Shown piece after piece: positions 1,432-21,118 of a stretch of DNA of 64,000 nt. The notes below the pieces were generated by a model, which saw nothing but the letters and a program-made list of their open reading frames with translations, did not search any database and was not told the DNA's origin. The translations under genes were made by a program, and so were the position numbers. Source of the stretch: Oscillospiraceae bacterium (lineage in GTDB: Bacteria > Bacillota > Clostridia > Oscillospirales > Oscillospiraceae); contig WQXY01000001.1 of assembly GCA_009781515.1 (NCBI GenBank), positions 124,001 to 188,000 of the forward strand, in the 5' to 3' direction. Within the stretch, counting starts at the first letter, position 1, and the number at the start of each line of letters is the position of its first letter.

Positions 1432-4400
1432 GTGAGTAATTTACGAAGAAAGTTCAAGCCCGGCTCAAAAGCCGGATTTACACTGACGGAAGTAATAGTT
1501 GTAATGATTATATTGGCTGTTATAGCAGCCACTGCAATACCGTCTGTTATAGGATTTATCAGGCACGGTCAGCAGATTAACCGCGCCAATATAGCCCGCA
1601 CCATGTATACAGCCATGCAAAACCAACTCTCACGTGCGTCAGTTGAGGGTAATTTGCGTGCAGTTTTGACGGACGCGTTTTATGTCGAGGGAACTAATGA
1701 ACTGATTGCACCTACCGCACTAAGAGGCAACACATTTTCACTTCTCGAGGATAACGGGTTTATACTTTTAGACTCATTCTCGCCGGAAGAACTCGCAGCA
1801 AACCGCGACAATGTCTTTACAATACATAAACCATTGGGTTATGAGCGTAGTGCCATAGGTGCGGAAACAGTAGTTGACCTGTTTTATGACATGCTCGATG
1901 AAATAATCGTAGACAGGGAAATATTAAACGGCGCTATTACCATGGAGTTTAACGTCTTGACAGGCGTTATTATGTCTATATTCTATTCCGACAATATCAG
2001 CCAAATGCAAGATGGCAATGCTCACGCCTACACCGGAAACGGCGACAGAAACGATATAGTCGGCGGCAGAGGCATGGGAGCAGGCGGTTATGCCGATGAC
2101 TACACACGCCGCCAAGGCTTTTACGGAGTTAATACCACAGGTGAAGTTCAGCTTCCGCACATGGACATCGTCAATATCTATGACGGAATGCATTATGTCG
2201 AAGCCGACGGCTATGAAACAGATGATAAAATCGGAGACACTTACGGTGTCGGACTCAAAACAAACGCAGGCACGAAAATAAACATTCTCTTTGCAGAGTT
2301 TTTGCTTGCCCCCGACTTTGACCAAGAGGGCAGAGAGCGTTCATTCTCAATTTTCCGCGATGAGAGCAGTCCCGCGGACACAGGCAATTGGGGTCAAATT
2401 AATATAGCAAACCCTGTTGCAACACCTTATGTGAGCTTTGCACAGGCAATATCAAGCACTTTAAACCCGGAAATACCGGGTGAGCATGCCATTTACCGTG
2501 ACGGCACTCGTGACGTAGAAGTCCATGGTATCTTAATACAATATGCAAGATTTATCTGGGTTATTGATTATATCGAAGGTGATTTGATAGCATCTTCACC
2601 TCACAGCATTTTCTCAAGAGTTGATTATCAGCTTATTGCAAACGCAGGACCGACAAATGCACGTGCAAGTGTATCGAGAGGAACATCTACCATAAACTCG
2701 CCCATGACAGCAAACACTCACTTTGCAAATATGCTCAATAACAATGCCTTCGCAATTTCATCTGCAAGGCATCTCAATAACATCCGTGAAAATCTCACAG
2801 ACTCAATATACAGCACAAACAACCGCAAGTTTGTACAAATCACGGATATTGACATGGCAACAACACAAAGTGCAAGCGGAGCACAAAACTTTAAGCCGAT
2901 AAGCCTTACAACAGGCGGCTCATACAGTGCAATAAAAGATGCCGATAAGCAATGGACAATCAGCAATCTCATTATAGACACAAACCCGGGCGACACTATT
3001 CCCGCACCTCCCGCACCGCATGCAGCTTATAACGGCGGTAATGTCGGTTTGTTCACTCATATAAACGGCAATAAAGAGGTTAATGTTACGGGTATCAGCC
3101 TGATTAACGCAACCATTCATGCTCCTAATGCACTTAATGTCGGAGCAATTGCAGGCTTACTTGATAACGGTGCAATTATCAGCCGTTCAAACAGCTACGC
3201 CAATGTCACAGGCGGAAATACCGCGCTGAGCAGAACAGGCGGGCTTGTTGGCCGTATCGACAGTCAGGCAGCAGGTGAGTTGTCTACACTTTCACATTCA
3301 TTTAACGCAGGTTTTTACAATACCATAGTCGGCACGGCAACAGCTACCGACGGCAACTTCGGCTCTGTTACGGCACGTGCAGGAGGTATCGGCGGTCTTG
3401 TCGGGGACAACAACGGCGTTGTTCAAATGACATATAATAACGCCCGTATAAATGTCGATACTGTTGAAATCGGAGCAAGTCCGTGGTACTTATCCGCAAA
3501 GCCAACCTTTACACTTATTGAAGACTCAATTCTTACCTACTTAGGCGGCTTGGTCGGTTATAACAATACTAACGGTGTAATCAGAAATTCCTACGCCACA
3601 AACTATGTGGCTGCTTATGAAGAAAACGACTACGCCCATTCGGGTGGTATAGCAGGTTGGAATGTTCCAATCGCTTTGACCGAAACCGTTATTACAAATG
3701 TACATTACATCGCAAACGGCTGTAAGGACTTTGGCAACTCTGTATCGCCTAACGACAGAAGATTTGCAACAACAAAGGATGAACTCAGTGAAGTTGGAAA
3801 TATCGGAGCAAGCGGTGTCAGGTTTGAGCCTGATACAAGCGCAGGCACAATGTACTTTGATGAATATTCAACCGAACAAAAAAACATATACTACAGATAT
3901 CCTTATCCAATCCTTGTAAATAATAAACCGTATATGACAGCCGACGATACCCATGTCGGTTGGGAAGATATTGACGTTGTAGTAGTCAGCCCGGTTATGC
4001 TTGTATATTTTGAAAAATATGCAGGCGGCGAAATCAGATTTGGCTCGGGAGCCTTTACACCCAATCTTATAAGCGCTCCAAATCATCCCGCAGTCATAGA
4101 AGCAGGATATATGCTGCTTGTAAATCCTAAGGAAGAAACAACTATTGACGCTGTTTATGCAAGCCTTGGTCTCTTTGTAAGACCGAGTGAGCCTGACGAA
4201 CCGGGCGGCAGCAGCTATGACTGGACACGTATTACATATGCTCCATTTACTGAGATGAACTCAAATCCAAACATGCCGTCGGGTTATGGTGGATACTATT
4301 ACACCATTCTCGAACTCGGAACGCTTGAGAGTGCACTTTCGCCCGAAAGAAACTTACTGCTCAACTACTGCGCAGCATATGGTACCGGCGCCGGAGACCC

Positions 4401-7400
4401 TGCTTCAACATACATAGAAGAAAAAAGTGGTTATTTCCACCCGCTTTTTGCAAACTCGGTAACAAACGAAGTGCACACTTATAACTATGAAGTACGTACA
4501 CCATGGCAAATGCAAAATATAGACATGTTGACGCTTCTTCGAAATGACCCTGAAATTAAAGATGAATGGGACGAGGGTAGTGAGTGGGCAAAATTCTTCC
4601 TTGGAGATCCTCCGGGTCCGCAAAGTTCTAATAATCACAATGGTGATGCTGTTACCGGTACGACAAGTGCTGATGCAGTAACCGGCAGAGCCAGACTGCG
4701 GGCACTGTTAGATACAGCGCCAAATGTAGACTCCGCTGTAAACACCGTCGTTCCGGAGTTTAGCGAGGGAACAGAATATTCATTTGCAGGCTCGACTCCG
4801 GCAAATACTATTAATGCAGCATCACTCGCAGCTTTCCGGGCAGCACATCCCGATGCCAATTATCTGATTGTTCCGGCGGGAGTGACCATTGCCGGTCCTC
4901 TTACAATGAATAATATAGAGTATCTTTACATCCGTGGTGCTCTTCACATTAGCGGTAATGTCAACATGCCGGACTTAATGGGAATGGTTGTGACAGGTAA
5001 TCTTACAGTTGCCGCAAACTCCAACATACGCGGTAATCCGGCCGATAATATCGGCTCAAGTATAGTTGTCGGCGGAACAATGACGGTACAGGCAGGCACA
5101 ACGACTGATACTACTCCTTTTGCAGGTTCACAAATACATGATTGCCGTTTTTATGTTACCGGCAACATAACTCTCGCAAACACAACAAGTAGCAGAAGCA
5201 TTATTCAAGGTAACAGCGTATATATGTCACAAGGTTCTATCACTCTTGGAACCGGTGGAAATAACACAAATATTGGAACAATGGAAAGATTTCCGCAGTT
5301 TTATTCAAGAAGCGGCATAGGCTATGCAGCTCATTCGAATGCGCAGTATTATGGAATATTTGCTACATTAGGTAATATTACCCGAACAAGTGGAAACGGT
5401 GCCGTAGAATATTATGGACTGTTTATGGGCGCAAACATTCAAGAACCGCCCTCAGGACCTCTAGGAGATAGGTTAGAGCCTATTACATGGCCCAATCCAA
5501 ATAACGCATTAAATTTAGGACTTACACATACAGTTGTAGTTACCGAACCTGACTGGGAGCCAAATCCCGAGGCACATGAGTTCAACTTCTTCCAAACGCG
5601 TAATATGGACTTTACCGCTGATGTCGGCTACAGCAGTCTTGCGGGCGGTGCTCGGGGCGACGGCACCACACCAAACCTAACAGGCAAATACGCGGTTGTT
5701 GAAAAAGTATTTGTCGGTGGGTATTACGGCGGCAGATTAGATACAAATGAGAGCTTTACTATCAGCAATGTGACCATATCCGGCGGCTTGAATGAGGCTT
5801 ACGGCTTATTCTCGGACAATGCCGGGCATATCGAAAGAGTCATACTTAGAACTTCGTCAATAACGGCTACAAACGCAACAGGAAACAAGGCGTTCGCCGG
5901 AGGATTGGCAGGTATTAACCATGGCACCATAATACAGTGTCAGCTTCAAAGTGTTACGGTAGCGGGCAGATTAAGCACAGGCGGCGTTGCAGGTGTCAAC
6001 AAAAATATCGGGTGGATTGGTCTTACAAGTGTGCAAAACTCAACAGTGAACGGCAACGGAGCTGTTGAAACGGGTGGTGTTACCGGCACAAACCACGGAA
6101 GGATTATTGACGTATCTTTCCTTTCACGTAACCTCGTAAATGATCCACCGGTTTCAAATGGCGGCGGCGGAATAGTCGGGTATAACAGTCTTAAAGAACA
6201 ACCCACGGATGAAGAAGATACATACTATGGTGTCGGGGAAGTTACGCAGGCACTTTACATTGCCCCGGCTCCGTTTACTACAGACACTGCAGGCAACAAA
6301 CTCATCCATCCGATTGTCGGAACCGGTAACTCTGCATATGAAAGACCGACAGGTCCGTCGTCATCGCATCCTACAACGTTCTACCTATCAGGGTACAGAT
6401 ATACACTTAATGAAGGTATCACGTGGGAAGGTCCTGCACCTGAGGTCTTTGATGAGTATAACCTGTTAGTTCCTCCTGTCGGCAGCAATCCGGGAGTATT
6501 GCTTAGAGGCGGCGGTCAAGGACTTATGACAATGTTCTTTGACAGGGAATGGATAAGCTTTATATATGGTGTTGACTTGACCAACTGGTTCCAACCCACA
6601 AGAGGGTATCCGTATCCTGTTATCAGAGGTATGCTACAGCCCGCACTTTGGGTTGAAACAGAAGGACCGGAAAGACCGGAGCAGGTTGAACGTACTGACT
6701 GGCTCACACCGGACAATACCACAGAAAGACCACGTGCTCCTCTGTTTGTAAACGGTGACTTTACAATGCCGTTTAGAAATCCGCTTATAATGAACTATAA
6801 TGTTCCGGCATCAAGTTGGCTGACACGCAACTGGTTCTTAGTAGATTTTCAAGAGGTTGAGGGTTGGTATACACGTCCGAGTCCCGGCTTCTACTATCTG
6901 TTTAATCCAAACGGAGTAGGTAGTCTAACCCCACCCGTTGATGCGTATATGTTCCCTCAACGCCCGTCTTCAAATCAATGGGAGGATTTTAGGAATGGAA
7001 CGGGAGATGCCGCAAGACAGCTTAATGCCGCAGGTACTACTGCCGCCAATCAGGCTGTTAATAATGACATCTTTAACACAGCGCCACCGGGAGGTCGAGC
7101 AACTGGAGCCTTACAAACAGCCAATCCGCTGCCTCCGGGCGGACTACCACAAGGTTTAACAGAGTTTCCGACATATCCGGGAACCTTAGGAACTGTTGCC
7201 AATAGGGCGTTCGTACAAACACCGAGGTGGCGTCTGATTGAAATTCAAGAACCTAATGCAAGACGCTCATGGATGCCCACAAACTACTTAGGGCGAAGTA
7301 AAGCGACAACAGCAGCAAATCCATTTAACTCGGCGGTTAATAATGTTCAGCGGTATGTTGAGCTTAATGCTCAGTCACCGGGCACACTCTATCAAGTTTT

Positions 7401-10400
7401 GCCGTCAACCCCCGACGCTACATTTATGTATTCTTTCTACCATGCCTCAAGAATTACATTCAGCAGTCCCAATGCCGCAACCTACAATCCTGCAAGTGAC
7501 AGAATGAACTTCTATCTCTCACCGTTTAATGAGGGAACAACAATGGAAGTCAGCACTGAGCCTATGGCAGTGGCTCGTGATACAGCACTTGTTATGATAC
7601 GTCCCTGCTTATCACCACGTATAGAGTCAACAGGATTAACAGGGATAACAGAGGGATCCGGAGCTAATGAAGAAGTTGCCACAAGCGGACGTACCGCAAA
7701 TGCAGGTCAGGTTCAAAACTCGGTGATGAACCCACGTGCATGGTGGAGCATTAACTACGGAGCGTCAAATGTATCAGGTCTGAACGGATATAACCTTAAC
7801 TATCACCGTAACAGAGAGTATCTGCAGCCAACAGGATTTCCGAGAGTACAAGACGATATTCCCGCAAATCATGTTTATAATCCGAGTATAACAACTACAC
7901 CTATCTATCTATATGATGTATGGGTTGGAGACATATCAACCTCAAATCCGGCAGGTACTTATGGTGGATATCGCGGTGGATATGGTATCACTTTCTGGTC
8001 AACAGCAAACTTAACAATCGGTACAGCCGGACAAGCAGGGCTTGACGGAATAATACCATTAGAGGGTATAACACAAGCTCAATTATTAGATGGCGGTGCC
8101 ACATGGGCATGGCTTGCACAGGCGAGAACCAATGTTATAGGCTATTGGGGTGTCAGCTACGGCTGGAAGCACTACTACGGCGAATATACCGTTCCTGAGC
8201 TGCAATCAACAACAGAATTTGCATTTCAGTCAGCATCTACCACACCAAACGATGGTAACTTCCTTGACGGTATTTCGTTCAGGTCGCCCGCATTTGTCAC
8301 AATAAATAAAGCAATTAAAAATACCGCAGGTACTGACGTTGTCACATCGGTAGGACCGGGTGAGGTGCTGACTGTTGAGCTTAACATCAAAAACTTAGGT
8401 GAAGTGCCTGCAAACGAAATTTCTATCAAAGACCAGCTCAGACCGTTTACGGAATACATTGAGTTTGTTCCGGGCACTGTTAGGATTGGCGGAGCTGCGG
8501 CTCCCGCAGGAGCAGTTGAATTAGACATAGACGGTGTAACTGTTAATGCTGTAAACATCAGTCTCGGAACAGAAGTTCTTGAATATAATCAGGAACTGCG
8601 AGTTACTTTTCAAATAAAAGTGCGTGACTATGTCAAGGGTTTTGAAGGTTATCTGAAAACACTTCTCTACCGCTTTGATAATCAAGCTGTTGTCAGCTAT
8701 CATCAGGGCTTGGTAGCCAACACAACAACTCACCCTGCACCGTATGCAACACGAACACATTCAAATGCGTCCAATATCACAGAAGTGTATATCAACCCGA
8801 TTGAGCTTTCAAAAACTGTAACGCCCTCTACTAACACCGGGCCGTTCAGAGTAACCCTAACTATTAAAAACACATTCGGTAGTGATGCAAAATTCACCAC
8901 ATCAGGAATGATAACCGAGATAATTCCCGCAAACTTTAGACTCACACAAATTGGTACATACACAATAACCGATTTTAGCGTTGGTACTACCGCTTATGGT
9001 GATGATATCAGAGTTACCCGTAACGAGGACGGCACAACAACCTTAATCATTACCAATGTAAATATTGACGCATCGGTAGATACCTTAGTCTACACATATA
9101 CACTCAGATACACAGGCAGTAATTTTGGCGTCACTCACCTTGTTGCAAGTGATATTGCAAGGTCGTCTGTTTACAGATACGTCTATACAGATGAAGATGA
9201 TGATATTGTTGCTCTGATGTCTTTGATGAGCTTCCCGCAGCCTGTGGTAGGTATATATATTGGAGCAAGAGATTACAGCTTTGCAGCAAGCGGAACAGAG
9301 CCTATTGTCCGTAACCTGACACAAGGCATCGACTTAAACGGTGGCATGGAAGCAGACGGCTACACCGTAGAACCTGCGGTTGTCTTTACAACCTCAACCG
9401 GAACACCGCTGACAGCAGCAGGCAACCCGCATAACATAGCAGATCAGGTGCTCACATTTACTGATTTAGGAAATCTTCAACGTCTTGCGAACGCCAACTT
9501 CGAGGTTGAAGTGACTAAGGGAACGGGCAATATAGAGTTTTGGCCCATTGAGCCGGGTGTGTATACGCTTTATTACCGCATTTCACTGACAGCAGAAAAA
9601 GCGGGTGCTCCGAGCTTTAATCTTCACTCAGGTGTGAGAACAATAACGATTTTTGTTCTCAGTGAGGATGAAGTTGTATACTTTGAGCAGTACAATGACA
9701 GTGACCATTATGGCTACTACACAGCAAATGGCGACCTCAACACACTCGAAAACGACAACTCATTTGTCATCACAGACTCGGGTTATGGTGTGCTCAGCAG
9801 CAGCGGAACAAGTGTTGTGATTTCGCACACAGTTAGGGATAAGATTGACCTTGACTCTGTATGGTTGTACATTCTTGATATAAATCCTGCTGTAAATCTC
9901 AACTTGCAGGATATATGGTTTGGACCTGACGGAGATCCGGACATAATAGGCTACATCCACCCGAATTTTGCCAAGCAGGTTTATGATGCAGCGGGAGATG
10001 CTACAAGTCCGTTTGAAATACGCACACCTCAGCAAATGATGAATATCGGTGAGCTTTCAGACACAGACGGTAAAACCTTTATCCAAACGCGAAACCTCGA
10101 CTTTGATGTCGCCAAACTTAGTGCCGCTCAGATTACTGCTCTAAACAATACCGGCGCCGTGGTCAAAGGGGAGTTTGAGGGTACATTTGTCGGCGGATAT
10201 CCGGATAGTACAATATCCAACCTGACAATTAATTCACCAACCCATGATAACGTGGGACTGTTCAGTCACAACAGCGGTACCATTAGAGATGTAATGCTCC
10301 GACCCGACACATCCATAACAGGTAGAAATAATGTCGGTGGTATTGCAGGACACAATGATGTAAACGGTGAAATCCGTGATTGTGATGTCAGCGGTGATCC

Positions 10401-11190
10401 GCTAACGGGTGAGGGAATGCATATCAAAGGAACAGAAACGGTTCCGGGAACAGGTATTAATGTTGGTGGTATTGCAGGACTTAATGACGGCTTGATAGAA
10501 GACTGTATTGTTTCAAACGCCACATCGACAATCGAAGGTGCTGACTTTATTGGAGGTATTGCAGGACGTAACGGAGCCGACGGTGAGATATTAAACTGTG
10601 AAGTTAAAAATGTCACAATACGTTCAGACGGATACAATGTAGGTGCTATCGTTGGCGGCAATGACAATACAGACCCCGACAGCTTAGACGGCAGCACAGC
10701 GACTGATGTAGTTGGCAAGAGTGGAGACGGCGACCCGAGAGATATAGAAGATGTAGGCGGTGGTGAACCGGACGAGCCCGATTTGTGTGACTGCGGTGAG
10801 CCGGAAGAAGACTGCACATGCGATACTACAACCGAACCATGCGCCTGTGCGGAGGACCCGTGTATTTGTTGCGATGAGTGCGAAAAGCCGGAAGAAGATT
10901 GCACATGCGATACTACAACCGAACCTGAGCCATGCGATTGTGGTCTTCCGGAATGTGAAGAATGTAACCCTATTAACGGCACGCAGGGCTACAGCGAGAT
11001 AATTGACTTTGACGCTCTTGTCGAGGATGGTGTAGATGGCTTTACGGCTTCAAGAAGTATCTTGATGCTGCCGATATTCGGTGGTTACGGCTTCACAAGA
11101 ACAAAAATATTCAGAAACTTTATCCGCCGCAGGGATGCCCGTGCAATCCGCAAAATTAACGAACATAATGATAGGAAAAGAGCAAGTTGA
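1432..11190 (+). CDS. Giant prepilin-like adhesin (3,252 aa)
   Basis: The N-terminus is a class III prepilin leader: basic residues, then G15|FTLTE with Glu at mature position 5, followed by a hydrophobic helix ending near residue 37. Everything after is a huge predicted extracellular region. Glycine-rich GLUG-type repeats (GGLVG-N, GGIAG-N) cluster around residues 540-760, 1450-1585 and 2935-3080. Two DUF11/isopeptide-like beta domains lie near 2285-2400 and 2455-2560. A Cys-rich, partly duplicated stretch covers about 3117-3180, and the last 30 residues are strongly basic. No LPXTG motif. The start is the GTG at 1432, since an in-frame stop lies just upstream; AGAAGGG at 1411-1417 is the nearest binding site but is 14 bases away. 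Inferred role: pilus-borne adhesin assembled by the machinery encoded at 15-23 kb. Ligand unknown. Confidence 0.85.
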   Translation: MSNLRRKFKPGSKAGFTLTEVIVVMIILAVIAATAIPSVIGFIRHGQQINRANIARTMYTAMQNQLSRASVEGNLRAVLTDAFYVEGTNELIAPTALRGNTFSLLEDNGFILLDSFSPEELAANRDNVFTIHKPLGYERSAIGAETVVDLFYDMLDEIIVDREILNGAITMEFNVLTGVIMSIFYSDNISQMQDGNAHAYTGNGDRNDIVGGRGMGAGGYADDYTRRQGFYGVNTTGEVQLPHMDIVNIYDGMHYVEADGYETDDKIGDTYGVGLKTNAGTKINILFAEFLLAPDFDQEGRERSFSIFRDESSPADTGNWGQINIANPVATPYVSFAQAISSTLNPEIPGEHAIYRDGTRDVEVHGILIQYARFIWVIDYIEGDLIASSPHSIFSRVDYQLIANAGPTNARASVSRGTSTINSPMTANTHFANMLNNNAFAISSARHLNNIRENLTDSIYSTNNRKFVQITDIDMATTQSASGAQNFKPISLTTGGSYSAIKDADKQWTISNLIIDTNPGDTIPAPPAPHAAYNGGNVGLFTHINGNKEVNVTGISLINATIHAPNALNVGAIAGLLDNGAIISRSNSYANVTGGNTALSRTGGLVGRIDSQAAGELSTLSHSFNAGFYNTIVGTATATDGNFGSVTARAGGIGGLVGDNNGVVQMTYNNARINVDTVEIGASPWYLSAKPTFTLIEDSILTYLGGLVGYNNTNGVIRNSYATNYVAAYEENDYAHSGGIAGWNVPIALTETVITNVHYIANGCKDFGNSVSPNDRRFATTKDELSEVGNIGASGVRFEPDTSAGTMYFDEYSTEQKNIYYRYPYPILVNNKPYMTADDTHVGWEDIDVVVVSPVMLVYFEKYAGGEIRFGSGAFTPNLISAPNHPAVIEAGYMLLVNPKEETTIDAVYASLGLFVRPSEPDEPGGSSYDWTRITYAPFTEMNSNPNMPSGYGGYYYTILELGTLESALSPERNLLLNYCAAYGTGAGDPASTYIEEKSGYFHPLFANSVTNEVHTYNYEVRTPWQMQNIDMLTLLRNDPEIKDEWDEGSEWAKFFLGDPPGPQSSNNHNGDAVTGTTSADAVTGRARLRALLDTAPNVDSAVNTVVPEFSEGTEYSFAGSTPANTINAASLAAFRAAHPDANYLIVPAGVTIAGPLTMNNIEYLYIRGALHISGNVNMPDLMGMVVTGNLTVAANSNIRGNPADNIGSSIVVGGTMTVQAGTTTDTTPFAGSQIHDCRFYVTGNITLANTTSSRSIIQGNSVYMSQGSITLGTGGNNTNIGTMERFPQFYSRSGIGYAAHSNAQYYGIFATLGNITRTSGNGAVEYYGLFMGANIQEPPSGPLGDRLEPITWPNPNNALNLGLTHTVVVTEPDWEPNPEAHEFNFFQTRNMDFTADVGYSSLAGGARGDGTTPNLTGKYAVVEKVFVGGYYGGRLDTNESFTISNVTISGGLNEAYGLFSDNAGHIERVILRTSSITATNATGNKAFAGGLAGINHGTIIQCQLQSVTVAGRLSTGGVAGVNKNIGWIGLTSVQNSTVNGNGAVETGGVTGTNHGRIIDVSFLSRNLVNDPPVSNGGGGIVGYNSLKEQPTDEEDTYYGVGEVTQALYIAPAPFTTDTAGNKLIHPIVGTGNSAYERPTGPSSSHPTTFYLSGYRYTLNEGITWEGPAPEVFDEYNLLVPPVGSNPGVLLRGGGQGLMTMFFDREWISFIYGVDLTNWFQPTRGYPYPVIRGMLQPALWVETEGPERPEQVERTDWLTPDNTTERPRAPLFVNGDFTMPFRNPLIMNYNVPASSWLTRNWFLVDFQEVEGWYTRPSPGFYYLFNPNGVGSLTPPVDAYMFPQRPSSNQWEDFRNGTGDAARQLNAAGTTAANQAVNNDIFNTAPPGGRATGALQTANPLPPGGLPQGLTEFPTYPGTLGTVANRAFVQTPRWRLIEIQEPNARRSWMPTNYLGRSKATTAANPFNSAVNNVQRYVELNAQSPGTLYQVLPSTPDATFMYSFYHASRITFSSPNAATYNPASDRMNFYLSPFNEGTTMEVSTEPMAVARDTALVMIRPCLSPRIESTGLTGITEGSGANEEVATSGRTANAGQVQNSVMNPRAWWSINYGASNVSGLNGYNLNYHRNREYLQPTGFPRVQDDIPANHVYNPSITTTPIYLYDVWVGDISTSNPAGTYGGYRGGYGITFWSTANLTIGTAGQAGLDGIIPLEGITQAQLLDGGATWAWLAQARTNVIGYWGVSYGWKHYYGEYTVPELQSTTEFAFQSASTTPNDGNFLDGISFRSPAFVTINKAIKNTAGTDVVTSVGPGEVLTVELNIKNLGEVPANEISIKDQLRPFTEYIEFVPGTVRIGGAAAPAGAVELDIDGVTVNAVNISLGTEVLEYNQELRVTFQIKVRDYVKGFEGYLKTLLYRFDNQAVVSYHQGLVANTTTHPAPYATRTHSNASNITEVYINPIELSKTVTPSTNTGPFRVTLTIKNTFGSDAKFTTSGMITEIIPANFRLTQIGTYTITDFSVGTTAYGDDIRVTRNEDGTTTLIITNVNIDASVDTLVYTYTLRYTGSNFGVTHLVASDIARSSVYRYVYTDEDDDIVALMSLMSFPQPVVGIYIGARDYSFAASGTEPIVRNLTQGIDLNGGMEADGYTVEPAVVFTTSTGTPLTAAGNPHNIADQVLTFTDLGNLQRLANANFEVEVTKGTGNIEFWPIEPGVYTLYYRISLTAEKAGAPSFNLHSGVRTITIFVLSEDEVVYFEQYNDSDHYGYYTANGDLNTLENDNSFVITDSGYGVLSSSGTSVVISHTVRDKIDLDSVWLYILDINPAVNLNLQDIWFGPDGDPDIIGYIHPNFAKQVYDAAGDATSPFEIRTPQQMMNIGELSDTDGKTFIQTRNLDFDVAKLSAAQITALNNTGAVVKGEFEGTFVGGYPDSTISNLTINSPTHDNVGLFSHNSGTIRDVMLRPDTSITGRNNVGGIAGHNDVNGEIRDCDVSGDPLTGEGMHIKGTETVPGTGINVGGIAGLNDGLIEDCIVSNATSTIEGADFIGGIAGRNGADGEILNCEVKNVTIRSDGYNVGAIVGGNDNTDPDSLDGSTATDVVGKSGDGDPRDIEDVGGGEPDEPDLCDCGEPEEDCTCDTTTEPCACAEDPCICCDECEKPEEDCTCDTTTEPEPCDCGLPECEECNPINGTQGYSEIIDFDALVEDGVDGFTASRSILMLPIFGGYGFTRTKIFRNFIRRRDARAIRKINEHNDRKRAS

Positions 11191-11933
11191 AAGTAATACG
11201 AAACATTCTAAAATCTAAAGCCGGAGTGTCGCTGATGATGGTCATCGGGGCAATGTCACTGCTCTTTGCAGTTTGTGCGTCCGTTGCTGTGGCTGCATAT
11301 GCCAACCTCGGGTATAATGCAAGGCAGGCGGAGTCAAACCGTATCAGGGTGCTCAGTGAGTCGATACACAGAAACATCAAGTTTGCATTGCAGCAAGACC
11401 AAGGTGCTCCTACATCAATGACCTCTCAGCTTGTTATGTCGCTCTTTAGAGCTGTTGAAGCAGGGGACGAGCCCGAAGATGTGCTTCTTAGTATTGATAT
11501 TAACAACATTGAGTTTGTTCCGCCGCAAAATTTGCATATAAAAAGCATCACACTCTCATGGGGCGTTGATGATGTCAGAATTACGCCTGCAGCCCCGTAT
11601 ATACCGGGGATTGACTTTGGTGGAACACCGGGATTTGTCAATATTCCTGCAGTTGCAAGAAGACCGCAGACAGCTGACGTCAATGCAACACTGTCAGTCA
11701 CCGTTGAGATTGAAGCTGTGAGATTTCTTGGAGTTCGCAGCAGACCGATTACAACAGTATCGACATATGAATACCGTGACGGGTTCTTAACACAAGAAAC
11801 ATCTGTGGCGCCGCCATATGACCCTCTTGATGAAAATGCAAATACCGTTTATGAAATGAGATTTGGAAGCGGACTTGGAAATTTCGGAACATGGAGCTTG
11901 ATATCATATGAAACAATTGACCCGATTGATTAA
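11187..11933 (+). CDS. Minor pilin-like protein lacking Glu5 (GspK-like position)
   Basis: A 248-residue protein with a prepilin-style start: basic leader, then KAG|VSLMMVIGAMSLLF and a hydrophobic helix. The residue at mature position 5 is Met instead of the usual Glu, as in tip-initiating GspK-type pseudopilins. The remainder is soluble and not recognised. The TTG start at 11187 overlaps the stop of the giant gene by four bases and has AGGAAAAG just upstream, which indicates translational coupling. Family assignment rests on the N-terminus and gene order only. Confidence 0.7.
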   Translation: MKVIRNILKSKAGVSLMMVIGAMSLLFAVCASVAVAAYANLGYNARQAESNRIRVLSESIHRNIKFALQQDQGAPTSMTSQLVMSLFRAVEAGDEPEDVLLSIDINNIEFVPPQNLHIKSITLSWGVDDVRITPAAPYIPGIDFGGTPGFVNIPAVARRPQTADVNATLSVTVEIEAVRFLGVRSRPITTVSTYEYRDGFLTQETSVAPPYDPLDENANTVYEMRFGSGLGNFGTWSLISYETIDPID

Positions 11934-12291
11934 GTGCATAAAAAGCATAAAAGGTGAGTCCATTATGGAAGTGCTTGTCGCCATGCTCGTTTTTACGATT
12001 TCGCTGACGGCAATAACGCTCATAATCAAGATTTCAACGAACCTCACTGCCACGCAGCTAATTCAGGCACGTGAAGCACAAGGGCTTGTCAACAACATCA
12101 TGGCTGATGTATATGAGGATGCCGCAGGTAATGAAATCGGTGTAGTATTTCCATTGATGTTCAGGCAAATTGAGATTGATGATGATGGCAATGTTGAGTA
12201 TGTGACAGATAACCCGATTGTAGCAGGGCATGATGTCAGATTTCTTAACGAAAACGGTATTGCGGCGTTTATGCCAAACACCACTCCATAG
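11908..12291 (+). CDS. Minor prepilin (GspI/PilV-like)
   Basis: A 127-residue protein with the class III signal KG|ESIMEVLVAMLVF, Glu at mature position 5 and a hydrophobic helix, followed by a short domain of about 85 residues. Its start overlaps the preceding gene by 26 bases, so it is expected to be translated from the same message. The small size and the E-x3-E-V-L pattern resemble GspI/PilV-type minor pilins. An alternative TTG start at 11926 would shorten the leader. Confidence 0.72.
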   Translation: MKQLTRLIKCIKSIKGESIMEVLVAMLVFTISLTAITLIIKISTNLTATQLIQAREAQGLVNNIMADVYEDAAGNEIGVVFPLMFRQIEIDDDGNVEYVTDNPIVAGHDVRFLNENGIAAFMPNTTP

Positions 12292-12306: not shown

Positions 12307-12879
12307 GTGTTGAAGAAAATTTTCAAAAGTAAAAAGGGAATGACCCTCATGGAAATACTCGTTGGCAGTATTATGCTCGCGGTATTTGCGGTTGCGATTT
12401 CTATGATTATACCTCCAATGCTGCTTGCATTTATGAGAGCTAATGACTTCGCAGAGTATAACGCTCTTCTCGACTCCGTCGGCAACCAAATCGTCAGCGA
12501 CGTAGTTCGTGCATCCGACCCGCTGACAACAGCGCCCGCAGGTGGCGGAGCACAGGTGGAAATTGCAGGAGCCGTTACGGGTGTTGACAATGTAACAATA
12601 CCGATAACAGGTGCAGGGAACGTAGAATATTCAATCTCAGCTCAAGGTACATTAGAACGGGGCGGCGCAGAGGTATTTCCGCAGGGGTTCTACAAAGGCA
12701 AGGAAATAGGCTTTACCATACGGGCACACGAGGATATGGACGGCGCCTATGAAATAGTAGTAATAATCCGTCCGCTTGCGGGCGGCAACAGGTTCGGGCT
12801 ATCAGGTGTTGACCTCGAGCGTGTGTTTGTAGCAAGACCACTGCAGCTGATTGACGACACGCCCCCACCGGGACCGTAA
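12307..12879 (+). CDS. Minor prepilin (GspJ/PilW-like)
   Basis: A 190-residue protein with KKG|MTLMEILVGSIML, Glu at mature position 5, and a hydrophobic helix, then a soluble domain. GTG at 12307 is used, with TTG at 12310 as an alternative; GAAAAGGATA lies upstream. It is the last gene of the plus-strand pilin operon. With the three genes before it, the order giant/K-like/I-like/J-like suggests a minor-pilin tip complex; this is inferred from the N-terminal motifs and order, not from fold recognition. Confidence 0.72.
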   Translation: MLKKIFKSKKGMTLMEILVGSIMLAVFAVAISMIIPPMLLAFMRANDFAEYNALLDSVGNQIVSDVVRASDPLTTAPAGGGAQVEIAGAVTGVDNVTIPITGAGNVEYSISAQGTLERGGAEVFPQGFYKGKEIGFTIRAHEDMDGAYEIVVIIRPLAGGNRFGLSGVDLERVFVARPLQLIDDTPPPGP

Positions 12880-12923: not shown

Positions 12924-13077
12924 AATCGGGTGGTCGCCGTGGGCGGCGGCTGCTCCCAAATCAACTAGTATTTGAGGAAGAGCCGTTTCGCATGAGGCGG
13001 TTATTTCCTGCGCTAAAGTGTGTATAATGTAGAAATAGGAAATGCAAAAAAAAAGAAGCTGTGAGGCTTCTTTTTTT
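12924..13077 (+). ncRNA. Orphan antitoxin-like small RNA (toxin deleted)
   Basis: Predicted from the strong promoter to the terminator at 13046-13077, about 150 nt. Its first 95 bases match the RNA opposing the small toxin ORF at 14.7 kb, including the hairpin at 12982-13001. The changes within that stem convert C-G pairs to U-G pairs, so pairing is kept. Beyond the shared GCGCT the sequence jumps directly to the shared terminator segment, so the toxin reading frame is missing here. No protein is encoded. Confidence 0.6.
13046..13077. terminator. Bidirectional-type terminator
   Basis: A-tract, GAAGC, 6-base loop, GCTTC, T-tract (13071-13077). The preceding 20 bases (TGTAGAAATAGGAAATGC) are repeated before the terminator at 15011. 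Confidence 0.75.
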
Positions 13078-13118: not shown

Positions 13119-13172
13119 TTACCAACGAAGCATTGTATGTATGAGTGGATATATGATAGGGAGGTGTTATAT

Positions 13173-13772
13173 ATGAATAAAGATGATGAATTAAAAGTGG
13201 AAGAAGGGGCAGTTGACTACAGTTACATGTATTATTCTGTTGAGGAGTATGAGGAAATTTGTAAAAAGGGTACACAGGCAGAGCTGCATGACGGTTTACT
13301 TGTTGTATTGGAAACACCAACAATAAAACATCAGATACTTTCAAATAATCTGTTTTCTAAACTTAGCGTATTTCTTGAGGGGAAAAAGTGTAAAGCATTT
13401 CATTCATCGCTTGGGGTGCGGCTTGATAAAAATGGAAAGTCATTTTACATACCGGATATTGCTGTTGTGTGTGATAAATCTAAATTCACAGAAACAAGAT
13501 ATGTTGGTGCTCCGGAGTTTATTATTGAGGTGCTCTCACCGTCGACTGCAAAAACTGATAAAGTACGTAAATTTAATGAATATCAAAAAGCAGGTGTTCG
13601 TGAATACTGGATTGTTGAACCTGAAACCAATTTATTGCAAGTAAATATTCTTACTAAGGACGGTTATCTTACAAAGGTTTATGATGAGGTTGATACTGCT
13701 GTGCCTGTAACTGTGCTGCAAGGTTGCGTAATAAACCTCGCTGATGTGTTTGATGACGACTGGCTGAGGTGA
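13173..13772 (+). CDS. Uma2-family (DUF820) putative endonuclease, copy 1
   Basis: A 199-residue member of the Uma2/DUF820 family, which has a PD-(D/E)xK nuclease-like fold. Visible family signatures are PDIAVVCD, EFIIEVLSPST and KAGVREYWIVEPE. The ATG at 13173 is chosen because GGGAGGTG lies at 13158-13165; an in-frame ATG at 13137 would add 12 residues but has no binding site. No partner gene suggests a specific role. The next gene is a diverged tandem copy. Natural function of these proteins is not established; nuclease activity is inferred from the fold. Confidence 0.85.
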   Translation: MNKDDELKVEEGAVDYSYMYYSVEEYEEICKKGTQAELHDGLLVVLETPTIKHQILSNNLFSKLSVFLEGKKCKAFHSSLGVRLDKNGKSFYIPDIAVVCDKSKFTETRYVGAPEFIIEVLSPSTAKTDKVRKFNEYQKAGVREYWIVEPETNLLQVNILTKDGYLTKVYDEVDTAVPVTVLQGCVINLADVFDDDWLR

Positions 13773-13859: not shown

Positions 13860-14005
13860 GAGGCAATTAGTTTGAATGAATTCAAACTAACGAGAGTAAT
13901 GTGCCAATTGCTCCCCTAACGGGAACCGCAATTCATGCACATAATGACCATCCTTTTTTAATGGTTGTTTTGTGTTTGATAACAAAAATAAAAGGAGTGG
14001 TCATT
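13860..14005 (+). promoter_or_regulatory. Structured leader that covers the ribosome binding site of Uma2 copy 2
   Basis: Contains a 10-bp palindromic hairpin (TTAGTTTGAA / TTCAAACTAA, 13867-13890). A second hairpin has its 5' arm at 13943-13957 and its 3' arm at 13990-14005: AATGACCA pairs with TGGTCATT, then after one bulged base TCCTTTT pairs with AAAAGGA. The AAAGGAG binding site at 13991-13997 is buried in this stem. A 27-codon frame (13836-13919) also crosses the region but has no binding site. Regulation of translation is inferred. Confidence 0.55.
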
Positions 14006-14008
14006 CTA

Positions 14009-14590
14009 ATGAATAAAGATGATGAATTAAGAGTGGAAGAAGCGGCAGTTGAATACAATCGCAAGTATACAGTTGAGGAGTATCAAAAATTCCGCGAGCA
14101 TACGCGTGCAGAGCTGCACGAGGGAACTATTGTTGTTATGGAGTCGCCTACAAGAAAGCACCAAGGAGTGTTAGCAAATATCAATTACAAACTGCGACAA
14201 TTTCTTGAGGGGAAAACATGCAAAGTATATACATCATCGTTTTCTGTAAGATTGAATGAAAAAGAAAATTCGTTCTTTGAACCGGATATTGTAGTTGTAT
14301 GTGATGAAAAAAAGCTGACAGTAAAAGGTTGTCTCGGAGCTCCGGACATGATAGTAGAGATACTCTCGCCGTCGACGTCATTATATGACAGGAAATATAA
14401 GTTTAATAAATATCAAGAAGCAGGGGTGCGTGAGTATTGGATTGTTGACCCGGAAATAGATATGGTGACCGCAAATACACTTGAAAATGGCGGGTACATT
14501 GGCAGATTTTACACTGCCGAGGATACAGTGCCTGTGACAGTTCTGCAAGGCTGCGAAATAAACCTCGCCGATGTGTTTAATGATTGGTAG
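14009..14590 (+). CDS. Uma2-family (DUF820) putative endonuclease, copy 2
   Basis: A 193-residue paralogue of the preceding gene, starting with the same MNKDDEL residues. Family signatures are EPDIVVVCD, DMIVEILSPST and EAGVREYWIVDPE. The start at 14009 is fixed by AAAGGAG at 13991-13997. The two copies have diverged clearly in the protein while their promoters have stayed nearly identical. Role unknown. Confidence 0.85.
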   Translation: MNKDDELRVEEAAVEYNRKYTVEEYQKFREHTRAELHEGTIVVMESPTRKHQGVLANINYKLRQFLEGKTCKVYTSSFSVRLNEKENSFFEPDIVVVCDEKKLTVKGCLGAPDMIVEILSPSTSLYDRKYKFNKYQEAGVREYWIVDPEIDMVTANTLENGGYIGRFYTAEDTVPVTVLQGCEINLADVFNDW

Positions 14591-15157: not shown

Positions 15158-15763
15158 CTATTGGGTGAGGTATTTGACTTCGAAGGTTAGGGTGATTGAG
15201 GCTGAGTTTGCTGTTTCGCCTTGCCAGCCTTGTGCGAAATTGACACTTGAAAGACGCATATATTCGGTATTGGAAACTTCTTCAAGTAAATTGAGCATAT
15301 TCTCATAACTGCCATTTCCCGTGACAAAAGTGGTTACTGTAGTAAAGACATCCACCCTACGCTCAGCATATATAGGAGTTCCGTCATCGTTGTAGCCAAT
15401 AATCGGACGGGGCGGCTCCGGTGGGCGGGTAGCAAAACCAAGAGAGCGAAGAATTAAGTTTTTATTCAAGCAAAGCGTTGTCAGCATATGGTCAGTTTCT
15501 TCATTTGGAACAAGCTTAGAATAACCTGCTGTCAGTTTATCAAAATTTTGCTGAGCTTCTGTGTTCTGTGCACGAAGACTTGGAAGATTTGCCACAGCCA
15601 TTTCATGTGTGAATTTTTCATTGCTCAGCCTGTCACGTTCTCTTTGTGCTGTACTATACCTCTGTGAGAGAGGAACAAGTGCAAACTGGATTGAAACATA
15701 TAATATTGCCAAAACCAAAACTGCAAAGAGCAGAATTTTTTCCCGTTTTGTTATTTTTGTCAT
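15158..15763 (-). CDS. pilO: Type IV pilus inner-membrane protein PilO
   Basis: A 201-residue protein with one N-terminal membrane helix (ILLFAVLVLAILYVSIQF), a coiled-coil stretch at about 35-80 and a C-terminal ferredoxin-like domain, the PilO architecture. It partners PilN and PilM in the alignment complex that links the motor to the pilus. Last gene of the minus-strand operon; it begins one base after the stop of pilMN. Confidence 0.85.
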   Translation of the reverse strand: MTKITKREKILLFAVLVLAILYVSIQFALVPLSQRYSTAQRERDRLSNEKFTHEMAVANLPSLRAQNTEAQQNFDKLTAGYSKLVPNEETDHMLTTLCLNKNLILRSLGFATRPPEPPRPIIGYNDDGTPIYAERRVDVFTTVTTFVTGNGSYENMLNLLEEVSNTEYMRLSSVNFAQGWQGETANSASITLTFEVKYLTQ

Positions 15764-15764
15764 G

Positions 15765-17204
15765 TTAGTTTCCCTCCTGATTTTCTCTTACTTCAAAGGA
15801 AAAAGTGAATGTTCCGGCAGAACCTGACCAACCTAAGTAGCCGACATATGAAACCATTGGATTTGCTCTGAGCTGCTCAATATAGCTGCTTGCGGCAAAT
15901 TCATCATATGCTGTTGCGCTTGCCCGTACAGAGCCGTCGTTTTCGTTAAAAGTAAAGCCTGTAATTCTTACATCGTCGCCGCCTGTGGTGACTATCATGT
16001 TGATAAAGCCTCTTGTAATGGAAGGCAGGTCATTTGTTGCTGCAATTTTTTCAAGCGCTTCATTATAAAGTCTGTTGGCAGTTGCAATACTTGAGTTTAA
16101 GCTTGCAAGCTCCGCTTTTTCATCAAGTACTTTTTGAGAGTTTAAGTAAGCCTCTAAGTCGCGAACTTCACGCTCGGCGCTTAGTACAAGCACAAGAAGA
16201 ATTGCTATGGCGGCTATTAAGACTGCCGCGACACCTATGATAATCGGCATCCATGTTTTCTTGGGGCGGTTTCGTCTTTTTGCTTTTTCTGCCATTCGGA
16301 TTGAATGGAGCAGGTCTGTTTCGGTCTCGGGCATGAGAGAGTTCATAAAAGAAATATGAGCGTTCGGGGGCAGTCTCTCAGCTCCTTTTACCCCTCTGAA
16401 AAGGTCGAGAATACCAAACTGGATTTCGGGATATGTATTATTTTCTCTGATTACCTGCAGGTCGTTATCATCAATTCCGACATAAAGACAATGCTTAATA
16501 TCTTCAAATTTTTGAGATTTATTAAACTGAACAATACCTGACAGACCAAGCAGGGAGTTTTGGATAAGAGAAGCACGGTCTTCGCCAAAGAGCCTTGCTC
16601 TTGACTGGAAGACGCACTCGCCGTTTTGGAAAATCATAGACAGCAGCATTTCGCCGTCAACAAGGCACAGGATAAACGGAGTTTCCTTAAGCTTCGGGAA
16701 GGTGCTGATATATTTAAGTATTGCCTGAATTCCGATGCGTACTATGCTCGGTGTTATCCCCGCAGCGCGAAGTATGCCAAGATATGTCTCGGCATGAGCG
16801 CGCTCCACAGCGCAAGCGAGTATTTGCTTTGAGCCGTCGGGATTAATACCAATCGGAATAAAGTCGCAGACAAGATTTTCCACGTCTGATGCAATTTCTG
16901 CAAATTCGTCGCGGATAACCTGGTCATATGCCCATTTGCCGAGCTTGGCGGGTACGGTTATTCTCTTTGTGTATACAAAGCTGCCGTCAATAACGAGCGA
17001 GACATCTTTAAAAAGACCGGGGTCTTGCTTGGCGAGGGACTTAAGAGCCTCAACAACAGGCCCGCCGTCTAAGATAACACCGTTAATGACACATTCTTCT
17101 GGCAGCGGGGCAGTTTTGTAGCCGTGGATATTTACCGACTTTCCCGACTTGGTGTATGAGAGAACCTCGACCATATATGTTGAAATATGTATTGATGCTT
17201 TCAT
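15765..17204 (-). CDS. pilM: PilM-PilN fusion protein
   Basis: Residues 1 to about 300 are an actin-like PilM domain (start MKASIHISTYMVEVLSYT; LCLVDGEMLLSMIF in the nucleotide-fold region). A short basic stretch then leads to a membrane helix near 318-340 (MPIIIGVAAVLIAAIAILLV), a coiled coil and a PilN-type periplasmic-like domain to residue 479. The fusion covalently joins the cytoplasmic ring protein to its membrane partner, which are normally separate genes. Flanked by pilC and pilO. Confidence 0.88.
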   Translation of the reverse strand: MKASIHISTYMVEVLSYTKSGKSVNIHGYKTAPLPEECVINGVILDGGPVVEALKSLAKQDPGLFKDVSLVIDGSFVYTKRITVPAKLGKWAYDQVIRDEFAEIASDVENLVCDFIPIGINPDGSKQILACAVERAHAETYLGILRAAGITPSIVRIGIQAILKYISTFPKLKETPFILCLVDGEMLLSMIFQNGECVFQSRARLFGEDRASLIQNSLLGLSGIVQFNKSQKFEDIKHCLYVGIDDNDLQVIRENNTYPEIQFGILDLFRGVKGAERLPPNAHISFMNSLMPETETDLLHSIRMAEKAKRRNRPKKTWMPIIIGVAAVLIAAIAILLVLVLSAEREVRDLEAYLNSQKVLDEKAELASLNSSIATANRLYNEALEKIAATNDLPSITRGFINMIVTTGGDDVRITGFTFNENDGSVRASATAYDEFAASSYIEQLRANPMVSYVGYLGWSGSAGTFTFSFEVRENQEGN

Positions 17205-17231
17205 TTAATCATCCTTCCTATATTAACTTTC

Positions 17232-18422
17232 TTATATTCCCATATTATTGTACATATCAAACATCGGCATCATAACAGACATCATGACAGTGCCGATAAT
17301 ACCTGCCATTATTACAATCATAACAGGCTGAATGAGCTGAACGAGCTTATCGAGAGCAACCTCAGCTTCATAGTCAAAGCTCTCTGCGGTGGACTCAAGC
17401 ATTGTGTCGAGCCTGCCTGTTTCTTCACCAATCATGATTGTTGTTGTGAGTTTTTTGTCAAAGCCGTCAACAGTGCCGATAGAGGCTGCTAAGCTTTGAC
17501 CGTTGCGAACATCTGTTATTACGGAGTCAAACTGCTTGGCTATATAGCTGTTGTTAATTATAGTTGCCGATATTTCAAGTGCTCTGAGCATTGGTATTCC
17601 GCTTGAATATAGTGATGAGAGGGTTCTTGCAAAACGCGCTGTGTATATGGTTTTTACGAGCTTTCCGACTATCGGGGCTTTTAATTTGAAGAGGTCAAAA
17701 TAATATTTAACCTTACCGATACTGAACAAAAACTGAATTGCTAAAATTACTACAAGAGCAACTATTATAACAATATACCAGTAGCTTTGTAAAAATTCGC
17801 TGAGCCACATCATAAATAAAGTGATACCGGGGAGTTCCATATCATCTTCAAATACTTCAAAAAGTGTAGGCAGAACCATAGTAAAGAGGAAAAAGACTGC
17901 GCCGACTGTAGCAATGAGCAGAACCATCGGGTAAGTCATTGCGGCTTTTGCTTTGGAGTTTAGTTTATGTTCTTTCTCATAATGAACTGCCATTTTTTCA
18001 GAAACTCTTTCAAGCTGACCGCTGGCTTCGCCCGAAGCGAACATATTTACAAGCAGCTCGGGGAAGGTTTTTCCCTGCATTCTCATAGCCTCCGACAGGG
18101 TGTAGCCGAGCAGAACATCACGGTGGAGCAGTTCATATACCCGCACGAGCTTAGGGGCAAAGTCGCGGGCTTTGAGTATTTCAATGGCACGCACGACTGT
18201 AATGCCGCTTGCGAGCATACTTGCAAGCTGACGTGAAAACTCTGCTGTTTCAGCCGGTTTCATACGGTAGTTTGCGTGTTTGTCTGTTTTGATGCTGTAG
18301 CTAACGGGAACAAGGTCCTGAGCACGTAAAAGCCGACGCAGGTCATCTTCATCTCTTGCGTCAAGCACTCCGTTTACTTTTTTGTTGGACAGGTTAAGTG
18401 CGCTGTAATTATATTTTGGCAT
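17232..18422 (-). CDS. pilC: Type IV pilus platform protein PilC
   Basis: A 396-residue polytopic membrane protein with two GspF/T2SSF domains (about 65-190 and 268-390). Three hydrophobic segments are visible (VLLIATVGAVFFLFTMVLP, YWYIVIIVALVVILAIQFLF, IVIMAGIIGTVMMSVMMP). Repeated GE-SG/GE-TGRLD motifs occur in the domains. It is the platform on which PilB and PilT act. Normal length. Confidence 0.94.
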   Translation of the reverse strand: MPKYNYSALNLSNKKVNGVLDARDEDDLRRLLRAQDLVPVSYSIKTDKHANYRMKPAETAEFSRQLASMLASGITVVRAIEILKARDFAPKLVRVYELLHRDVLLGYTLSEAMRMQGKTFPELLVNMFASGEASGQLERVSEKMAVHYEKEHKLNSKAKAAMTYPMVLLIATVGAVFFLFTMVLPTLFEVFEDDMELPGITLFMMWLSEFLQSYWYIVIIVALVVILAIQFLFSIGKVKYYFDLFKLKAPIVGKLVKTIYTARFARTLSSLYSSGIPMLRALEISATIINNSYIAKQFDSVITDVRNGQSLAASIGTVDGFDKKLTTTIMIGEETGRLDTMLESTAESFDYEAEVALDKLVQLIQPVMIVIMAGIIGTVMMSVMMPMFDMYNNMGI

Positions 18423-18457
18423 ATGTTAGTCTCCAATGTTTGTCAGAGATTTGATTT

Positions 18458-19240
18458 CTAAATCCAAAAGTTACTTAAATAGTAGTCGATTATGTCTTTG
18501 CCGAAGTAGATAGAGATTGTTATACCGATACAAAGTGCGGGACCAAAAACCATATGGCTTCCGCGCTCGCGTCTGCCGCTGAGAAGTAAATATGCTGCGA
18601 CACCGCCGCCGAGAATAAGCGCGATAAAAAATGAGAGAAGTGTGAGTTGCCAGCCTAAGAAAAGTCCGCAAACCGCCATGAGTTTGATGTCGCCCCCGCC
18701 GAATGCTCCGCTGATTAAAAGTGCGATAAGCAGCATAGGCAAAGAGATTGTAAAAGCGCCGATAATATGAGAAAGTAACGTGACATCATCAAAGAGCCAG
18801 ATTGCGGCTATAGAAAAGGGGATAAGGGCTATTATAAGGCTGTCGGGTATCTCTGTTGTATCAAAGTCAATGAGTGACACGGCGAGGAGTATCATCAAAA
18901 CGGGGTAGATAATCAGTGCAAGCGGGGTAAAGCCGAACATGTATATGGCTGATACCGCAAGAGCTGCTCCGAGAAGTTCAACAATAGGATATCGAAATGA
19001 TATTTGTGCCTTGCAGCTTCGGCACTTGCCGAGGAGTATAAACCAAGAGATAACAGGAAAGAGGTCATACCACTTGATAGTCTCGCTGCAGGCGGGGCAA
19101 AAGGAACGTTTGTTTGAAAAGAACATGCCCTTTTCGGGAAGTCTTGCCATTACAACATTTAAGAAGCTGCCGAGCATAGCTCCGATTATGGCTGTATAGA
19201 TATAAACTAAGGTTGGTGAATACTCAAAGATTTCGTTCAA
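18458..19240 (-). CDS. pilD: Prepilin peptidase PilD
   Basis: A 260-residue polytopic A24 aspartic protease. The N-terminal domain has two CxxC pairs (CPAC and CRSC), needed for the methylase part of the bifunctional enzyme. Catalytic aspartates lie in DFDTTEIPD and GGGDIKLMA. It should cleave and methylate all prepilins encoded nearby, including the giant one. Confidence 0.94.
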   Translation of the reverse strand: MNEIFEYSPTLVYIYTAIIGAMLGSFLNVVMARLPEKGMFFSNKRSFCPACSETIKWYDLFPVISWFILLGKCRSCKAQISFRYPIVELLGAALAVSAIYMFGFTPLALIIYPVLMILLAVSLIDFDTTEIPDSLIIALIPFSIAAIWLFDDVTLLSHIIGAFTISLPMLLIALLISGAFGGGDIKLMAVCGLFLGWQLTLLSFFIALILGGGVAAYLLLSGRRERGSHMVFGPALCIGITISIYFGKDIIDYYLSNFWI

Positions 19241-19266
19241 GCTTGATTACCGTCCGCTCTCGCTTC

Positions 19267-19297
19267 ACCCGTTACCTGACGATAACAGGTAACGGGT
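19267..19297. terminator. Perfect 12-bp hairpin between pilin and pilD
   Basis: ACCCGTTACCTG, 7-base loop, CAGGTAACGGGT. No T-tract follows on the minus strand, so a partial terminator or an mRNA-stabilising end of the pilin message is more likely than a full stop. Confidence 0.6.
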
Positions 19298-19336
19298 AAA
19301 GCTGTGTAAGTAAAATATGCTTACAACGTGGCTGAT

Positions 19337-19885
19337 TTAGCCACCGCCACCACCACCACCGGCGGTGAGAGGAACAGGAGTTCCGTCTCCCGAATTACCA
19401 ACAAGCAGAAGTCCATTGCCAATGCCGTCTATATTACGACCGGTTCTAACGTTATTGCCAATAGCAACTCCGACAACACTTCCGTTGGCATCAAGATAAA
19501 CCGAGACTAAGCCGCGGTTGTCCGCAGCTGAATAAACAGCACCGGCAACCCAAGCTGTATTATTATCTTGACTATATATTCCAGCGTCTTGTATTAGATT
19601 TTGAAATGTTAGGTCAGCGTCAAGCAAAATGGAACTAAAACCTACGTAATCAGTTCTGGCGCCGTCGCTCCATTCGCCCGTACCTCTTGCATGTGTCGTT
19701 GTGGACTGTATTGCCATCAGTGCTGTGCGTCCTTCTACACGAAGGGTGTTTTCGCGGGACTCGTTAATCCAGCCGATGAGTGTGGGGAGCAGGGCTGCCA
19801 TCAAAATGGCGATAATGATGAGAACAACGATGAGTTCCATCAATGTGAAGCCTTTTCTGCTCTTGAGAATTTGCATAAGTTTCAT
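19337..19885 (-). CDS. Major type IV pilin
   Basis: A 182-residue prepilin: short basic leader, KG12|FTLMELIVVLIIIAILMA, with Glu at mature position 5. The hydrophobic helix is followed by a globular domain with a short C-terminal region. The protein ends in seven consecutive glycines. AAAGGAG is well placed before the ATG. Position between pilT and pilD and a following hairpin fit an abundantly expressed major pilin. There is no Cys pair for a disulfide loop. Confidence 0.9.
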   Translation of the reverse strand: MKLMQILKSRKGFTLMELIVVLIIIAILMAALLPTLIGWINESRENTLRVEGRTALMAIQSTTTHARGTGEWSDGARTDYVGFSSILLDADLTFQNLIQDAGIYSQDNNTAWVAGAVYSAADNRGLVSVYLDANGSVVGVAIGNNVRTGRNIDGIGNGLLLVGNSGDGTPVPLTAGGGGGGG

Positions 19886-19975
19886 TTTGTTTCTCCTTTT
19901 AATAAAGTTTGTTTTTTATATTTCTTATGTTTAAGTTATGGTTTTTTATTTCATAACAAAAACATTTGAAACCTC

Positions 19976-21037: not shown

Positions 21038-21066
21038 TTAATTTTTTACCTCTTATATGTTACAAA

Positions 21067-21110
21067 TCACCCGGCGTCTGCGGACGCCACCCTCTTTACT
21101 AAAGAGGGCT
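21067..21110. repeat. Two-hairpin palindromic repeat, copy 2
   Basis: Lies in the pilB-pilT gap. TCACCC, hairpin GGCGTC/GGACGCC, hairpin CCCTCTTTACTAAAGAGGG. Confidence 0.8.
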
Positions 21111-21118
21111 AAAAGGAA

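Follow-up and report, generated by a model that had tools for sequence, protein, structure and literature searches.

A 3,252-residue protein with a prepilin start in an Oscillospiraceae bacterium is probably a modular minor type IV pilin

Why should a protein of 3,252 residues begin with the signal of a type IV pilin? The question is raised by a giant gene at positions 1432–11190 (+) of a 64,000-nucleotide stretch of the genome of an Oscillospiraceae bacterium from the gut (assembly GCA_009781515.1, contig WQXY01000001.1, positions 124,001 to 188,000; hereafter the window). Based on its reading frame, neighbours, homologues and predicted structure, we consider with a probability of roughly three in four that the giant belongs to the modular minor type IV pilins and displays a graft in the pilus tip complex, where it acts as an adhesin; it starts like a normal pilin and goes on as a huge surface arm, which is probably carried on the tip of a fibre that can retract.

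The reading frame is uninterrupted over 3,252 codons from a GTG start, exactly as an earlier sequence-only reading had placed it. The N-terminus reads (M/V)SNLRRKFKPGSKAG before and FTLTEVIVVMIILAVIAATAIP after the predicted cleavage point, and thus a short basic leader ending in G or A, a hydrophobic stretch and a glutamate at position +5, the marks of a class III signal, are all present. This start, also claimed by that reading, scores above the curated cut-offs of both PF07963 (22.4 bits, cut-off 21.2) and TIGR02532 (22.6 bits, cut-off 16.3). The glutamate E20 (+5 relative to G15) is invariant across 19 aligned homologues, and consequently the prepilin motif is not a matter of chance. Across the genome, PF07963 (E 0.001) has two matches, the giant and a 182-residue putative major pilin, which lie about 18 kb apart. 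A motif scan of the whole protein gave no LPXTG-type match, again as claimed, although the genome holds seven sortase matches. The parts of the giant are as follows (lengths of open reading frames were counted from the first possible start codon, and some are overlong by a few dozen residues).

1432–11190, +, giant modular prepilin, 3,252 residues, GTG start (frame, Pfam and TIGR profile matches, homologues)
1432–1476, +, class III leader, residues 1–15, with predicted PilD cleavage after G15 (profile matches)
1477–2142, +, pilin module, residues 16–237: helix 18–72, then head (boundary from stand-alone homologues; AlphaFold2 DSSP)
2143–2748, +, second conserved beta-rich region, residues about 238–439 (alignment; AlphaFold2 DSSP)
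2749–3936, +, GLUG block I, with a beta-helix resembling the one in M26 (IgA1) proteases, residues about 440–835
5572–6351, +, GLUG block II, residues 1381–1640 (GLUG-like regular expression; homologue comparison)
7204–8328, +, conserved core, jelly-roll-like beta-sandwich, residues 1925–2299
8302–9666, +, DUF11-like and further immunoglobulin-like (Ig-like) region, residues 2291–2745
9922–10686, +, GLUG block III, residues 2831–3085
10687–11001, +, acidic cysteine-rich linker, residues 3086–3190, 16 Cys
11002–11187, +, C-terminal tail, residues 3191–3252: short hydrophobic patch, then basic end

A type IV pilin should have a lollipop fold, with a first helix of about 50 residues and a beta-sheet head. 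In the AlphaFold2 model, helix 18–72 is followed by a head with four longer strands (128–133, 168–174, 180–186 and 229–232); the fold comparison barely covered residues 1–237, and sequence matches in the PDB are confined to the first-helix region. Behind this module, PF07581 (GLUG) scores above its cut-off, with three stretches, and a GLUG-like regular expression gives 13 matches in three blocks starting at residues 571–738, 1490–1579 and 2969–3071. PF07581, the model and the fold comparison agree on a GLUG beta-helix as in the M26 IgA1 protease, and the fold comparison of the predicted structure places a surface-protein fold in the graft. We take IPR011493, an entry named in PMC8179133, to be this same GLUG motif. 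TIGR01451 (DUF11-like) reaches 22.4 bits at residues 2305–2354 on the whole protein, under its cut-off of 24, and 24.5 bits on a sub-fragment. No Pfam match in the window protein's own region and no PDB sequence match was found for the core at 1925–2299. The GLUG-type and DUF11-like repeats of the sequence-only reading are therefore present, but they do not fill "over 3,200 residues": residues 1–237 are the pilin module, about 238–440 are beta-rich, and 1925–2299 form a beta-sandwich.

The genes on the 3′ side of the giant, and a pilus machine on the opposite strand, are the second line of evidence.

1319–1347, +, promoter-like extended -10 site in the gap that separates tyrS from the giant gene (consensus match only)
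11187–11933, +, K-like minor pilin lacking Glu5 (Met at +5), AGVSLMMVIG
11908–12291, +, I-like (PilV/GspI/ComGE-like) minor pilin, GESIMEV (weak family matches)
12307–12879, +, J-like minor pilin, GMTLMEI (N_methyl below cut-off in the window copy)
13048–13077, +, terminator-like hairpin after the pilin operon (consensus match only)
15158–15763, -, PilO/GspM-like (weak, below cut-offs)
15765–17204, -, PilM-like, 479 residues, hydrophobic stretch in the second half (profile matches)
17232–18422, -, PilC/GspF platform protein (profile matches)
18458–19240, -, PilD prepilin peptidase with A24 N-terminal domain (profile matches)
19337–19885, -, putative major pilin (PilA), 182 residues (PF07963 and other matches)
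19976–21037, -, PilT-like ATPase (T2SSE match; PilT from length and gene order)
21119–22816, -, PilB-like ATPase with MshEN domain (profile matches)

Three small prepilins thus adjoin the giant. To count this arrangement, we read each contig once and took every locus in which the giant is complete and 1.2 kb or more of downstream sequence follows, which left 23 (the window, L043, L044, L048–L052, L055, L056, L058, L059, L061, L062, L064, L066, L068, L069 and L091–L095; the operon of L056 was read by eye). L054 (1.1 kb, none), L065 (which ends at the giant), L071 (0.3 kb) and the 731-residue protein of L046 were excluded. Directly downstream of the giant, 20 of the 23 loci have a K-like prepilin that lacks Glu at +5; in L044 this gene is found upstream of the giant, and L059 and L092 have none. 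All 20 K-like genes found lack Glu5, which matches the trait of one Glu5-less subunit in the HIJK complex: tip complexes of the type IV pilus (T4P) and the type II secretion system (T2SS) are capped by such a subunit (PMC10191384). Family matches of the partners are uneven, since none of 15 K-like proteins matches a Pfam pilin family (one stray match), the I-like ones match weakly (ComGE model 4 of 13, PilV 3 of 13), and N_methyl is found in 9 of 12 J-like ones, plus one stray match. The HIJK complex (PMC10191384, PMC9934059) and the giant's operon both comprise four genes, among them K-like (Glu5-less), I-like and J-like members. They differ in that the remaining, H-like place is filled here by the giant and in that the K-like proteins have no Pfam pilin match. 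The promoter-like site and the hairpin would fit a single four-gene transcript, to judge from consensus matches; the scanned region has 41 promoter-like sites (shuffle mean 28.6, standard deviation 5.0) and 15 terminator-like hairpins (12.0, 3.8).

The same operon slot holds the third line of evidence. In two genomes of one genus of another family, profile residues 11–235 span nearly the whole of a protein of 189–191 residues, with K-like and I-like genes behind it in both genomes; where the contig is long enough, in one of the two, a J-like gene comes next. This ungrafted pilin is 35–36% identical to the giant and ends FYGARTTGIPERE, five residues beyond the giant's residue 237. Consequently, residues 16–237 of the giant are the pilin and residues 238–3252 the graft. 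A modular pilin in the sense of PMC8179133 joins a pilin module to a domain that is not T4P-specific and that has a direct role in a filament function. The joining is found here, with PF07581 behind a boundary near residue 237, and the graft would have its role as an adhesin. In a midpoint-rooted tree with several weak forks, the ungrafted pilin lies outside the group of 25 rows to which the window protein belongs; the giants may have gained the graft, or the ungrafted lineage may have lost it.

A prepilin peptidase and an assembly machine, as a type IV pilin needs, are encoded at the giant's own locus (15158–22816). The PilM-like protein may possibly be a PilM-PilN fusion, as its length and hydrophobic stretch could suggest. 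Between the operon and the machine lie two tandem Uma2-family (PF05685) genes, at 13137–13772 and 13901–14590.

By combining these observations, a mechanism may be proposed. PilD would remove the 15-residue leader, and residues 16–237 would join the K-like, I-like and J-like products in a minor-pilin complex from which the pilus starts and which caps it. The graft of 3,015 residues, with its GLUG beta-helices, jelly-roll-like sandwich and Ig-like units, would thereby be extruded through the wall and would serve as the pilus's own adhesin for a presumed ligand, and the PilT-like ATPase could retract the pilus together with the graft. In diderm pili this task falls to PilY1, a protein of its own; in the giant it would be achieved through covalent fusion. 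PilC/PilY1 (PF05567) is likewise a very large modular tip effector on minor pilins (PMC8179133, PMC10191384), but it is not a pilin, whereas in the giant the effector is fused to one. The Pfam matches of the giant, listed to E 0.1, do not include PF05567; the genome has no match either, but control genomes are matchless too, so that absence from the genome is not shown.

The closest parallel is found in PilB and PilC of Streptococcus sanguinis, whose modular kind is established by structure and binding and whose place at the tip is supported by modelling (PMC8179133, PMC9934059). Like the giant, they have a class III signal with E5, a small pilin module with grafted modules behind it (binding modules in their case), a proposed minor-pilin tip complex and a monoderm host. 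Unlike them, the giant shares its operon with K-, I- and J-like partners and has ungrafted homologues that fill its slot elsewhere, and it would measure 3,237 residues if cleaved after G15, against 454 for processed PilB. The sequence-only reading had described a giant pilus-tethered adhesin with an uncommon anchor. Its adhesin is in line with the prepilin start, the PilD gene at the locus, the lack of LPXTG and the surface-protein fold, but the neighbours and ungrafted homologues add a position and an origin, and the protein is more aptly described as a minor pilin of modular build, encoded in an operon of the tip-complex type; the anchor is uncommon in frequency, while its principle is published (PMC8179133).

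The main rival, unlikely but ahead of the others, is that the class III signal is only a membrane anchor and that the protein crosses the wall by its own length, with the small partners alongside and no pilus assembly. The graft is long, at 3,015 residues, the C-terminal tail of 10 of the 19 complete giants could add a second contact with the envelope, and a pilus is known here from its genes alone, none having been seen. On the other hand, the giants retain E5, the operon partners are kept, including the Glu5-less subunit, and machine genes with PilB- and PilT-like ATPases lie next to them.

The tail itself deserves a closer look. In those ten giants (the window protein, 10687–11187 with the linker, and L048, L049, L050, L052, L054, L061, L066, L068 and L069), the last 25 residues hold 6–12 K/R after a short hydrophobic patch, often behind an acidic cysteine-rich linker. 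The patch is weaker than membrane segments usually are, the tail matches no recognised signal, and a search with it in the giant's own genome returns only itself. The other nine lack it, and L055, L056, L058 and L064 end near the equivalent of residues ~2740–2745 of the window protein. It is conceivable, though quite doubtful, that the mega-pilins are held at both ends, the pilin end being extruded at the pilus tip while the tail is kept in the membrane or wall. Pilus extension and retraction would then stretch a loop of several thousand residues, and the giant would work as a spring-like tether, not as an adhesin that is free at the tip.

A role as a transformation DNA receptor is improbable. 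The minor pilin ComZ also carries a beta-solenoid (PMC8179133), and the genome has a ComEC-type match, a family that matches 10 of 14 control genomes as well; however, DNA capture is disfavoured because the giant is very acidic (computed isoelectric point 4.59, net charge -160), and a sandwich and Ig-like units accompany its solenoids. That the giant is a protease of M26 IgA1 descent, carried on the pilus, is scarcely credible: the GLUG beta-helix is shared, but the HExxH zinc site is missing from all 3,252 residues and no M26 catalytic family is among the Pfam matches (relatives L050 and L067 have one HExxH motif match each). Just as improbable is a secreted or lattice protein with an accidental prepilin start, for although nothing in the protein's own sequence but the class III start and the first helix indicates pili, E5 is conserved in the 19 aligned homologues, pilus genes are adjacent and ungrafted pilin homologues exist.

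How widespread is this design? With the giant's first 456 residues as query, 22 of 99 genomes match (own included), many over the first helix alone; within the genus, 8 of 18 match, each with a giant or a contig-cut portion, and 10 show no match. A contig scan gave 25 loci, of which 18 have a complete frame (1,759–3,722 residues); the other seven run off the locus, after 3,736 residues at the longest and 104 at the shortest, so that not all 25 are shown to be giants. Their record names are Oscillospiraceae, Lachnospiraceae and Defluviitaleaceae, plus Robinsoniella. Accessions of 21 fall within the range that PMC7024585 gives for its 589 termite-gut genomes (sample codes there include Co191, Nt197, Th196, Emb289 and Lab288), three carry the codes Pal332 (twice) and Cx337, and one is Robinsoniella peoriensis; this termite link is biased to kin, because the peptide-pattern search was built from the source genus. 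The Robinsoniella protein (L071, 3,497 residues) is distantly related, at 24% identity, and its PF07963 score of 16.6 bits is below the cut-off; all the other 24 records are labelled as metagenome-assembled genomes. In four pairs of relatives (45–55% identity), the proportion of nonsynonymous differences is below that of synonymous ones in every 500-codon stretch (dS is often saturated), and purifying selection acts across the aligned length, the N-terminal stretch being the most conserved in three pairs but not in the fourth.

The Clostridia survey that the sequence-only reading had proposed, for prepilin signals on proteins above 1,500 residues, has a first result at class level: the N-terminal profile matches 135 of 291 genomes, mostly small pilins over the first helix, and among the matches listed there are at least 6 genomes, the giant's own among them, where the prepilin-profile match lies in a frame of 1,500 residues or more. 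Other Clostridia giants (L043, L044, L071 and L091–L095; 1,891–3,749 residues) likewise have a prepilin-like start, and K-like genes adjoin L043, L091, L093, L094 and L095 and lie upstream of L044. Seven of these eight pilin modules stand on long branches outside the window's 25-row tree group, and their grafts differ where known. L091 and L092, from another family, carry Listeria-Bacteroides repeats (PF09479), with no GLUG match among the matches listed, which suggests separate grafts onto pilins.

Modular pilins, multi-domain ones included, are known in as many as 264 architectures, and the most extreme multi-domain case named in this 2021 survey has 860 residues (PMC8179133). The giant is nearly four times as long, although that case is extreme by domain number and longer single-domain cases may exist in the survey's data. 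The pilin-finding rules of PMC3244431 accept proteins up to 350 residues only, and mega-pilins would therefore be missed by them. In the open-licence literature, searched in part, we found no description of pilins of several thousand residues or of a short armless relative in the same operon slot. What sets the family apart is the size, the retention in one operon slot and the ungrafted counterpart; the building plan itself is known. The graft strategy at giant scale is a conserved arrangement, not a freak, and the natural pair that fills this slot, a giant in some genomes and a pilin of 190 residues in others, makes testable both the cargo limit of a monoderm pilus and what giant arms bind in insect-gut communities.

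Two further observations concern other genes. The giant's genome has a second GLUG-rich frame of 1,350 residues (G000:C10, ~21072–21752; L097, L099, L100, L102 and L103), which is not one of the two PF07963 matches. In the window, the gene at 45719–47008 carries ATP-dependent DNA ligase domains (PF01068 and PF14743).
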